Of a stretch of 64,000 nt of DNA, positions 33,069 to 36,895 are shown in pieces. Both the position numbers and the translations under genes were made by a program. The DNA comes from Peltaster fructicola (lineage: Eukaryota > Ascomycota > Dothideomycetes), in assembly GCA_001592805.2 (NCBI GenBank), contig CP051141.1, positions 1,054,001-1,118,000 on the forward strand, given 5' to 3'. Every line of letters begins with the position of its first letter. The stretch's first letter is position 1. Under the pieces are notes generated by a model. The model saw only the letters and a list, made by a program, of their open reading frames with translations, made no database searches and had not been told where the DNA came from.

Positions 33069-34751
33069 ATGAATCAAGCGCAGCCGTATATGGATGTTGG
33101 TCAAGGACATGGCACTGCTCCTGCTCCACCACCAAGCTACAACTATGGACAGCAGCCTCAAGCACTCCAGCCAGCTTCACAGCAATACCAACCTGCTAAC
33201 TATGGCGGCTACTCCAATTACACTATGGCGCCAATGTCACAAGGACACCCTGTGCCGGTCAGCACGCCGATGAGTCAAGGAATGGTCAGTCAATCGATGA
33301 ATCTTCCAGCCATGTCTGCTCCGTTGCCAAATCCCAGCGCTCCAGTATATGGTGCAGCGGGTCATCAATTCGACACCACTGGTCAGATTGCGCCTGCAGG
33401 TATGAAGCCACGGGTGACCGCAACCTTGTGGGAGGACGAGGGCAGCCTGTGCTTCCAGGTCGAAGCACAAGGCGTATGTGTGGCACGTCGTGAGGACAAT
33501 CACATGATCAATGGCACCAAGCTGCTCAATGTTGCTGGCATGACTCGAGGACGCCGAGATGGTATTTTGAAGAGCGAGAAGACTCGCCACGTGGTCAAGA
33601 TTGGCCCGATGCATCTCAAGGGCGTCTGGATTCCATTCGATCGTGCGCTTGATTTTGCGAACAAGGAGAAGATCACAGAGCTTCTTTACCCACTGTTCGT
33701 CCACAACATCGGCGCTCTTCTATACCATCCTACAAACCAGGGCCGTCCAGCGAGCATTGGAAATGCAAGCATGGCAGCTGGCCGACCAGAACGGCAACAC
33801 GACTACATGCGCACTCCGACTGGCACGCAGCCTCCTCCGTTGACGCATCACCACACCATGAGCAACCCTATTGGTCCTCCACAGCCACCACACTCGATCG
33901 CGCCTCACCCATCGTCTGGCAGACCCGGGTTAGATCGTGCTCACACCTTCCCAACACCACCAGCTAGTGCCTCCAGCATGATGAACCTAGGCAACTCTGG
34001 TAGTTCCTACGGTTATGGAGGTCCTCCAAATGCTTCCATGCATGCATGTAAGTCTACGGCAGTCCTGCACCATGATCGCACTGACAAGGTTCTAGCCACG
34101 ACGCCTCCTTCTGCGTCTCAAGCAATTTCGTACGCGGATGGTCAACACTATGACCCATCGCGGGCAGTCTACTCGACACCAACATACAATCAATACCCGT
34201 CCAGCCAGCAATATGGACATGCTGGACATGTGAAAGCCGATCTCTCTGGACAAGCCCGTGCTGGTGCCGAGAACGATCACGCAGACAGCAAGACAGACGG
34301 ATATCCGAACCATGCAGATGGTGAGACTGATGGACCTGCCCACCACGATCCTACGCATATCTCAACTGAGATGACAAGCTCGCCTCAGCAGAACGGCTCT
34401 GGACGAGCCACTCCACGGACTACCACCTACGGCGAGTATGCGACACCGCAGCGAGGAGCTCAACTTCCTTCGAGCAATCTCTATAACGTGATGAGCAACG
34501 ACGGCCGCTCAACAAACGGTGCCGAATCGTACGCCCCGCAGAGCTATCAGCCTCCACAGTCACACTACCCGTCCTCAATGAATGGCTTGTCAAACTCAAA
34601 TAAGCGTGTGCGAGAAGTGGACGACTCCGAAGACCAATATGGTCGCGGCATGAACTCACCAGGTGGTGGTCTCAAACGCCAACGCACCGACGGGGCTGCC
34701 TTGAACAGCCGACCGATCAGCCATCCTCCGCCAGTCAAACCTGTACGATGA
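33069..34751 (+). CDS. stuA: APSES transcription factor StuA
   Basis: bHLH-like APSES regulator of conidiophore and hyphal development. Model: 33069..34047 joined to 34096..34751, 544 aa. The start MNQAQPYMDVGQG matches the well-known StuA N-terminus and is the first ATG after a 741-nt ATG-free leader. The APSES DNA-binding domain spans about residues 112-220 (VTATLWEDEGSLCFQVE, CVARREDNHMINGTKLLNVA, GRRDGILKSEKTRHVVKIG, LKGVWIPFDRALDFANKEKI). Downstream are the conserved LDRAHTFPTPPASASSMM block, the TSSPQQNGSGRATPRTT block and a C-terminal basic cluster (NKRVREVDD ... LKRQRTDG) that looks like a bipartite NLS. The 48-nt intron (GTAAGT...CTGAC...TAG) is in frame even if retained. The frame stays open for 130 codons upstream without ATG. 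Confidence 0.93.
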   Translation: MNQAQPYMDVGQGHGTAPAPPPSYNYGQQPQALQPASQQYQPANYGGYSNYTMAPMSQGHPVPVSTPMSQGMVSQSMNLPAMSAPLPNPSAPVYGAAGHQFDTTGQIAPAGMKPRVTATLWEDEGSLCFQVEAQGVCVARREDNHMINGTKLLNVAGMTRGRRDGILKSEKTRHVVKIGPMHLKGVWIPFDRALDFANKEKITELLYPLFVHNIGALLYHPTNQGRPASIGNASMAAGRPERQHDYMRTPTGTQPPPLTHHHTMSNPIGPPQPPHSIAPHPSSGRPGLDRAHTFPTPPASASSMMNLGNSGSSYGYGGPPNASMHACKSTAVLHHDRTDKVLATTPPSASQAISYADGQHYDPSRAVYSTPTYNQYPSSQQYGHAGHVKADLSGQARAGAENDHADSKTDGYPNHADGETDGPAHHDPTHISTEMTSSPQQNGSGRATPRTTTYGEYATPQRGAQLPSSNLYNVMSNDGRSTNGAESYAPQSYQPPQSHYPSSMNGLSNSNKRVREVDDSEDQYGRGMNSPGGGLKRQRTDGAALNSRPISHPPPVKPVR

Positions 34752-35347: not shown

Positions 35348-36311
35348 TCACACATCCATCGACAGGAATATCCACTGCTCACTAGTGCAAGCGCTTACAT
35401 CAGACCAGAAGTCAAGAGTAGCGAGCTCGAAACCCACCCAGCCAAGGTCTTTCACCAAATCGGTACTGTCTTGAGCATCTGCTGTGCGGTCGACACAGAC
35501 GATGAGCTGCGAACAATCGAAGCTGGCGGTGCTTGCTAGTTCAAGCAGTGCAGTGAGACTGTGTTCTGTCAGTAGTGTTATTAAAACAAAAGAAAGGGTG
35601 GACTGACCCAGGCTTCAGATCTTCTCCGATGACAGTCTTGCTGAAGAAAGCGAACAAGGCACGTTCACCATCCTTTTCAGCTACCAAGCCACGCAATGTG
35701 ACACCTCCAGTGTAGTCATACATCTCCAAGTATGTCTTGACCATGCCGATGCTACCAGTGTAGCTCTCCAGTGTGCCAGGTGAGGCAGAGGGAGTTGGCA
35801 GACCAGTCTGGCCCACGGAATTGTATCCAGTATTGCGCGTATGTCCACCTATACGGCCATTTCTCTTTGGCACATCCATCACAAGCGAGTTCTCAAGTGC
35901 CGTATCCTTCTCAACCAAGAATACGGCCTTCAGCGTCTCGCAGAGGAGTCTCTCACACTCCTCCGTGATGTTATGTGCGGCGTCTCCACTGCGTGATCGA
36001 GCACGCATCACTGGTCGTTGCCCTTCGATCAGTGGAGACGGCGGCGGTGACGGTACCCCCGAAGGGACCTCAAACCAACCACCCCAGTCCTGTATATGCG
36101 ATCAGCTGCTGTATCATAAGTGGCACAATGGGTGTAACGTACCGCCTGCCCCGCAGGTTGAGTAGTGGAAGCCAGTCAATGCCATGGTGTGTGCATCGAC
36201 GACGTAGGCGCTCGCAGTGGTGTTCTGGCGGCGAGAGCTCTCAGAGGAGGTGCGTTGAGTAGAGTAATTACTACTACTACTGTAATGATTCATGTCTGAT
36301 ATAAACGCCAT
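35348..36311 (-). CDS. Ornithine decarboxylase antizyme, +1 ribosomal frameshift
   Basis: Polyamine feedback regulator: binds ornithine decarboxylase and sends it to the proteasome. Model: complement(35348..35558, 35608..36089, 36143..36311). ORF0 starts at 36311 (MAFISDMNHY) and contains YVVDAHTMALTGFHYSTCGA; intron 1 (53 nt) is phase 1, and ORF0 ends GGLGWLV at TGA 36072-36070, 62 codons. Skipping one base at GTT-T-GAG continues as EVPSGVPSPPPSPL, then HNITEECERLLCETLKAVFL. Intron 2 (49 nt, GTCAGT...CAG) leads to the core domain LTALLELASTASFDCSQLIV, DLGWVGFELATLDFW and a C-terminal QWIFLSMDV. The predicted recoded product is 286 aa. GTT-TGA at the shift site fits the family rule of a stop in the A site; polyamine-stimulated frameshifting is inferred from the family. 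Confidence 0.88.
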
Positions 36312-36895
36312 TGCTTGAGCCTGCCACGGTGATTGCTTCGTCTGCTGTACTTGCGTAGGTGGATGCGAGAGATCTTGTCGAAATGACGAAGCGTAGCGAA
36401 GACTGTGCAAAGGTGGATGGTGGATGGTGACTGAGTGACTGAAGAACGATAGAGCTGATTTCACGATGTGATTGCGACGATGGTCTCTGCAGCGGGACTT
36501 GCCTGCAAGCGGCGAACCTTGCTTGGCGTCGTTCGCTCGCCCACGTGCTCGACCGAGTCGCGAGCAATGAGGTGAGGCATTATATCCTAGGGAGCGAGGT
36601 CTTTGTGATCGTTACACCATAGACATGAGCTTGAGCCGATCAAACTTGTCGTGCAACCCATAGCAGAAACTATTTTGGTGTTGCAATCGTCGTGTTGTGC
36701 TTCCGTGCCTCAGGCAGCACCACGGTCCGTGCTGTGAGCAGCTTTCTCATAGTTGAACGCTCTGCTTTGCGCTTTCTTCTCTCACTATCGCTTCTACACT
36801 CTCACTTCTCGTTACCTGACATTGCTCTATCACTGCGCATCTGTCGCACAGAGAGACCCTCTACAACACCGCCGATACATCGCGCGACAGCCAGC
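36312..36895. promoter_or_regulatory. Bidirectional promoter region antizyme / HRP1
   Basis: 584 nt between divergent starts, pyrimidine-rich on the HRP1 side near 36770-36840. The antizyme frame stays open upstream to 36464 with one more ATG, which could give a longer ORF0. Confidence 0.45.

Follow-up and report, generated by a model that had tools for sequence, protein, structure and literature searches.

The closest described counterparts of the gene reported here are the ornithine decarboxylase antizymes of vertebrates and of other fungi. The gene lies on the minus strand of a window of 64,000 nucleotides from Peltaster fructicola (Dothideomycetes; contig CP051141.1, positions 1,054,001 to 1,118,000), and all coordinates below refer to this window. 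Vertebrate antizyme 1 (OAZ1) shares with it the ODC_AZ domain, the fold, a +1 frameshift at the UGA that ends a short first open reading frame (ORF; ORF0 in the present gene), and a UGG codon placed two codons ahead of the shift codon. The shift codon of OAZ1 is UCC, whereas GTT is found here, and no pseudoknot was recognised 3' of the site in the window. The antizyme of Schizosaccharomyces pombe also shifts at UCC, unlike the P. fructicola gene. It resembles the latter at codons -8 to -6, which read A-G-G in both: the S. pombe row in Table 2 of PMC5009743 gives A-G-G-A at -8 to -5, with the glycine at -7 described as standing beside another glycine, and the window has A-G-G-L, where the glycine at -7 likewise adjoins a second one (numbering matched by us). 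Agaricomycete antizymes, such as that of Coprinopsis cinerea (UUU-UGA), are likewise fungal, with an NTT-type codon before UGA and a conserved ORF0 peptide near the site. They use TTT in place of GTT, and two adjacent stem-loops from 19 nucleotides 3' of the site are described for them (PMC4505036), in contrast to one candidate 11-bp stem 29 nucleotides past the TGA here. Within the Pezizomycotina, Westerdykella, Botrytis, Trichoderma and Xylographa share the ORF0 peptide, the linker motif and the antizyme body with P. fructicola. Their junction reads Pro-Glu (PE), implying NCC-UGA, whereas the window and its near relatives have Phe-Glu (FE), implying NTT-UGA.

The locus very probably holds a normal fungal ornithine decarboxylase antizyme gene, the sole copy found in the genome, whose two frames are joined by +1 recoding at GTT-TGA. 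Comparison of sequences gives good support to ordinary antizyme recoding, in which the uncommon shift codon appears to extend across the lineage.

Gene structure and family

Script checks of the frames and splice signals gave a gene of three exons, running from 36311 to 35348 (Table 1). The ORF0s of relatives begin with MA, in agreement with a start at ATG 36311. Exon 1 comprises 169 nucleotides, and intron 1 is therefore of phase 1. The splicing of both introns is predicted from sequence features: branch-like motifs lie 16 nucleotides from the 3' end of intron 1 (CTGAT) and 14 nucleotides from that of intron 2 (CTGAC), and both lengths agree with the median intron of 50 bp in the published P. 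fructicola genome (PMC7181583). ORF0 has 62 codons, the last ones being GGG-TGG-TTG-GTT-TGA. Without a shift, its frame meets an immediate stop. The body is readable only in the +1 frame, where GTT (T) GAG GTC CCT encodes V-E-V-P. When the T of the TGA is skipped, the product has 286 amino acids and continues with EVPSGVPSPPPSPL past the shift, and its expected junction peptide is GGLGWLVEVPSG. The linker after the site contains the motif PSPPPSP. The first-pass annotation, made from the DNA letters, had proposed a complete antizyme gene with a GTT-TGA +1 site. This turned out to be correct to the base, as the frames, the family, the +1 direction and the stop codon agree. The scripts also confirmed its 62-codon ORF0, the TGA at 36072-36070 and the role of the phase-1 intron in setting the frame.

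The body matched PF02100 (ODC_AZ) over 114 of 114 positions (E-value 7e-38; 129.5 bits at a cut-off of 24.2). A search for the family across the genome (18,987,130 bases in 5 contigs) yielded two matches, which are two exons of this same gene, and none elsewhere. Protein relatives were found for both sides of the shift site. The gene is not a chance assembly of frames, because it combines the PF02100 match, relatives on both sides and the only locus of the family in the genome. The ornithine decarboxylase target is encoded in the same genome, with one PF02784 match (E-value 5.2e-80).

The frame break in relatives

The relatives comprised 209 records from three protein searches, the third of which contributed the best 120 of 795. 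One record is the public model of the window itself. Shift codons of the relatives were deduced from protein letters, not from DNA; scans of viral and prokaryotic contigs for orthologous DNA returned no relatives. Eleven records hold ORF0 only, a count that excludes P0025 and P0074, since both have the body. Four of the eleven extend to the site, and all four stop at the same point: they end in GAGWLV, GGVGWLV, GVGWCV and GVGWCV, the window in GLGWLV. The remaining seven stop elsewhere, mostly within an apparently unspliced intron. In P0097 intron 1 is absent, and ORF0 runs straight to GVGWLV and then ends. This supports the splice of intron 1 in the window, because a sequence without the intron ends its ORF0 at the same point. 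In P0096, P0100 and P0102 the intron is read through; ORF0 stays in its own frame and stops at the site.

In the body frame, the junction reads Trp, Gly or Ala followed by Phe-Glu. Phenylalanine and then glutamate, with a stop at the site, require TTT-GAR and hence NTT-TGA. Tryptophan or alanine before the phenylalanine (P0005, P0016, P0055 and P0076) further requires G as the first base and hence GTT-TGA.

A sequencing or assembly indel in a truly single-frame gene could have produced a similar picture, as the assembly is Nanopore-based (PMC7181583) and the first-pass annotation had noted further frame breaks in the window. The assembly was, however, polished with Nanopolish and Pilon (PMC7181583), and ORF0 ends at the identical point in four other sequences. 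An indel in one assembly cannot create the junction pattern that other records share. Moreover, a +1 shift is needed by antizyme genes in virtually all organisms (PMC2375905), and the break here is +1 and falls at a stop codon. We regard an indel as highly improbable.

Several observations weigh against recoding at the site. In the annotation of many relatives, ORF0 and the body share a single frame, and the metagenome records P0055, P0061, P0074 and P0076 are single-frame through an apparently unspliced intron 1. No excess folding was seen next to the site in 14 windows of 40 or 60 nucleotides starting 6-25 nucleotides after the first base of GTT (z scores from -0.02 to +1.53), nor in two windows of 70 nucleotides (0.51 and 0.05). 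The Rfam search gave no antizyme family among the matches up to an E-value of 5. The tRNA reading GTT was not located: the 26 tRNA loci scanned included one valine gene, with the anticodon CAC, and no tRNA-Val(AAC), and anticodon patterns together with 20 loci from pattern matches yielded no tRNA; the published count is 44 tRNA genes, so the loci scanned fall short of the full set.

The single-frame annotations raise the question of splicing in place of recoding. An alternative intron could remove the TGA and fuse ORF0 with the body, as is assumed in the public model AMS68_004277 (P0001) and in many models of relatives. On mechanical grounds, 34 choices of one GT/GC..AG intron (40-300 nucleotides) would achieve the fusion (for example, donor 36142 with the AG at 36023), P0001 carries an extra intron of 91 nucleotides, and the four metagenome records manage without a shift. 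The annotated junctions differ across species, however, and lose different pieces near the site. The P0001 intron deletes the stretch from FEV to PSPPPSP, which is present in many relatives, and P0097, with no intron at the site, still terminates its ORF0 with GWLV. The first-pass annotation had held that its reading would be refuted by orthologues whose ORF0 and body share a frame. Such proteins do exist in numbers among the annotated relatives, but the variability of their junctions between species leads us to read them as gene callers dodging the frame break. Thus, splicing as the general way of joining the frames appears very unlikely, and a minor isoform that fuses them in this manner may occur.

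Retention of intron 1 in P0055, P0061, P0074 and P0076 would yield a shift-free antizyme. In the window, retention runs into two in-frame TGA codons, and P0096, P0100 and P0102 stop at the site despite it. Retention is therefore not a conserved means of avoiding the shift, and it is possible in those four records.

The earlier expectation that an ordinary gene caller would mishandle the gene was borne out. AMS68_004277 has 185 amino acids, begins with MALTG and lacks the C-terminus; it is short at both ends and bridges the shift with its 91-nucleotide intron.

ORF0 in models of the antizyme fold

Solved structures were searched by sequence with little return: the single sequence gave no match at an E-value of 10, and a profile gave weak matches (E-values of 0.17 and 0.48). 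In the weak profile alignment at 0.17, with numbering by eye, the human ornithine decarboxylase contacts K153 and E161 seem to pair with the invariant K215 and E223. Fold comparison was carried out with the AlphaFold models of two relatives, P0003 and P0116. Both are annotated proteins whose junctions we took as artificial, and the hairpin discussed here precedes the junction. The top structure match was 4zgy_B, an antizyme fold. The conserved ORF0 segment is a beta-hairpin in both, for the most part confidently modelled. The P0003 model has ORF0 strands at residues 30-38 and 44-50 (predicted local distance difference test, pLDDT, of 91 and 88 by block), and the P0116 model at 25-33 and 38-44 (pLDDT of 75, 90 and 62 by block). 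The alignment to human antizyme begins at model residue 29 (P0003) or 24 (P0116), opposite chain residue 101. Against the shorter chain 4zgz_B, which starts from residue 126, it does not begin until model residue 180 or 168.

Since the ORF0 segment is modelled as a hairpin of the antizyme fold, the shift would lie inside the domain. In the human protein, ORF1 reaches to about residue 68. Residues 98-124, which form the opening strands of the human domain, are inside the solved C-terminal fragment 95-228 (PMC6995573), whereas ORF0 encodes the corresponding hairpin in these models. The models suggest that this hairpin stands in for those human strands, with the strand pairing deduced from the alignment end points.

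These results also bear on the possibility that ORF0 is merely an upstream ORF and that the body begins at its own internal ATG. The body frame does contain an ATG, at 36008 (MRARSRSGDAAH..), and the close relative P0005 shares the methionine at this position. The aligned annotated relatives mostly have leucine or another residue there (RPGLKARSRSG, RPSLRRQRKRSG). In an alignment of 27 rows, the mean share of the top residue was 0.75 and 0.72 for ORF0 residues 29-57 as compared with 0.68 for the ODC_AZ domain. A segment that is conserved at least as well as the domain, and folds into it in two models, leaves a separate start of the body scarcely credible.

The shift codon and its surroundings

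The junction could be read as FE in 33 of the 209 records and as PE in 56, and was unreadable in 120. PE together with the stop implies NCC-TGA, the type to which the common UCC-UGA belongs. FE taxa with names include Hortaea, Baudoinia, Dothistroma, Septoria, Cercospora, Aureobasidium, Myriangium and Elsinoe; those with PE include Westerdykella, Zopfia and Coniosporium, plus other classes. Lineage look-ups for seven species placed Hortaea, Aureobasidium and Elsinoe in the Dothideomycetidae and Westerdykella in the Pleosporomycetidae, with Peltaster, Coniosporium and Zopfia unsettled within the Dothideomycetes. The FE species with names are all Capnodiales-like, Dothideales or Myriangiales. 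A record labelled Quercus suber also sits in the FE set and is presumably fungal.

A tree was built from 89 body cores with the junction left out (P0025 was dropped for want of an anchor match). The quick tree needed two changes of the shift codon. A tree that keeps all FE rows together was better by 22.8 log units and was not rejected (approximately unbiased test, p-AU 0.91). The shift codon was probably swapped in the FE lineage, and a single event is thus compatible with the trees, not proven by them. G as the first base was read directly in the window and deduced in relatives that have tryptophan or alanine before the phenylalanine or whose ORF0 ends in valine. The FE pattern suggests an NTT shift codon, whether GTT or another, across a whole fungal lineage.

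The first-pass annotation had stressed GTT as an unusual shift codon. It is indeed uncommon, but less surprising than was claimed, given that codons vary among antizymes and the FE pattern looks lineage-wide. GUU may even be among the published antizyme shift codons. No paper pairing GUU-UGA with an antizyme turned up in the literature searched, which excluded the main surveys (Ivanov and Atkins 2007; Ivanov et al. 2000). Codon variety at these sites is already known: a logo legend in PMC2375905 describes differing shift codons in antizymes and names the U of the stop as the sole universal base.

Upstream of the site, the TGG codon occupies the place where UGG is strongly conserved in antizyme mRNAs (PMC5009743). 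Codons -15 to -5 read FHYSTCGAGGL and fall within the best conserved stretch of ORF0; in Agaricomycete antizymes, a nascent-peptide stimulator is described in codons -15 to -5 (PMC4505036). The conservation of FHYSTCGAGGL may be structural instead of stimulatory. Downstream, seven windows of 90 nucleotides had z scores of -1.2 to -2.2, due to the stem further along (Table 1). This 11-bp stem, chosen post hoc, reached z = -2.70 in the 70-nucleotide stretch 36050-35981, with 1 of 200 shuffles as stable, and is a candidate only for a 3' stimulator. A stronger hairpin in the body, GCCGUAUUCUU-loop-AAGGAUACGGC (35927-35899, minus strand; z = -5.4), starts 142 nucleotides past the TGA. We rejected it as a classical stimulator because of this distance.

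Of 13 sequences with residues in frame upstream of ORF0, the window among them, 12 encode Pro-Trp at the same spacing; the sample is biased to open frames. The CCG-TGG-CAG of the window could be a 5' untranslated element, part of a non-AUG extension or the near-cognate start of an overlapping upstream ORF. Upstream of the ATG, 100 codons of the ORF0 frame (36611-36312, minus strand) contain neither a stop nor an in-frame ATG. The antizyme gene converges with an ORF of 560 amino acids (33069-34751, plus strand), which by eye we take to be an APSES/StuA-type transcription factor.

Table 1. Features of the antizyme locus in window coordinates
Feature	Position	Strand	Remarks
CCG-TGG-CAG (P-W-Q, ORF0 frame)	36321..36329	-	4-6 codons 5' of the ORF0 start
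Exon 1	36143..36311	-	ATG at 36311; 169 nt (168 nt of codons + 1 nt); most of ORF0
Conserved ORF0 segment ASAYVVDAHTMALTGFHYST	36156..36215	-	codons 33-52; beta-hairpin of the antizyme fold in the AlphaFold models of two relatives
Intron 1 (predicted)	36090..36142	-	53 nt, phase 1, GT..AG: GTACGT..ATACAG
Exon 2	35608..36089	-	end of ORF0, shift site, linker, start of the antizyme body
TGG codon	36079..36081	-	two codons 5' of the shift codon
Shift site GTT-TGA	36070..36075	-	GTT 36075-36073, TGA 36072-36070; T at 36072 skipped, next codon GAG
91-nt intron implied by AMS68_004277 (P0001)	35989..36079	-	read as not real; cuts out both GTT-TGA and the linker PSPPPSP
Candidate 3' RNA stem, 11 bp, CGUCUCCACUG/CAGUGGAGACG	35981..36040	-	36040-36030 with 35991-35981; begins 29 nt past the TGA
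Intron 2 (predicted)	35559..35607	-	49 nt, GT..AG: GTCAGT..ACACAG; the Pfam match runs on across it
Exon 3	35348..35558	-	C-terminal part of the ODC_AZ domain; stop TGA 35350-35348

The gene most likely works through the feedback loop known for antizymes. With recoding at GTT-TGA, a ribosome would translate ORF0 and arrive at the site with peptidyl-tRNA on GTT. At low polyamine levels, most ribosomes would terminate and release a peptide of 62 residues. At high levels, a larger share would slip by +1, read GAG and produce the antizyme of 286 residues, which would bind ornithine decarboxylase, direct it to the proteasome and limit polyamine uptake. We infer both the shift and its regulation by polyamines. 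The tRNA on GTT would re-pair with UUU using positions two and three, in the manner expected of the serine tRNA at UCC-U. In eukaryotes, the tRNA reading GTT usually has inosine at position 34 (I34). If this holds here, the move from GUU to UUU would lose the first pair and keep the second and third, like that from UCC to CCU, and the codon swap would preserve re-pairing.

The chances are about even that the first beta-hairpin of the GNAT-like domain comes from ORF0 in filamentous ascomycetes and that the Dothideomycete lineage of P. fructicola exchanged NCC-UGA for NTT-UGA once while keeping the UGG. If so, termination would free a bare hairpin peptide, and the shift would be needed to complete the domain. 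The codon swap would also provide a natural series showing which peptidyl-site tRNAs permit +1 shifting at a stop codon. Such a hairpin would account for the conservation of ORF0 at the protein level in these fungi. The locus is also a clean case of a gene misread by standard annotation, with an invented intron and both ends absent. The need for re-pairing of the peptidyl-site (P-site) tRNA in the +1 frame was recently reopened for yeast sites (PMC12661321). If the swap is confirmed at the DNA level, these fungi would offer matched natural NCC-UGA and NTT-UGA sites for testing it.
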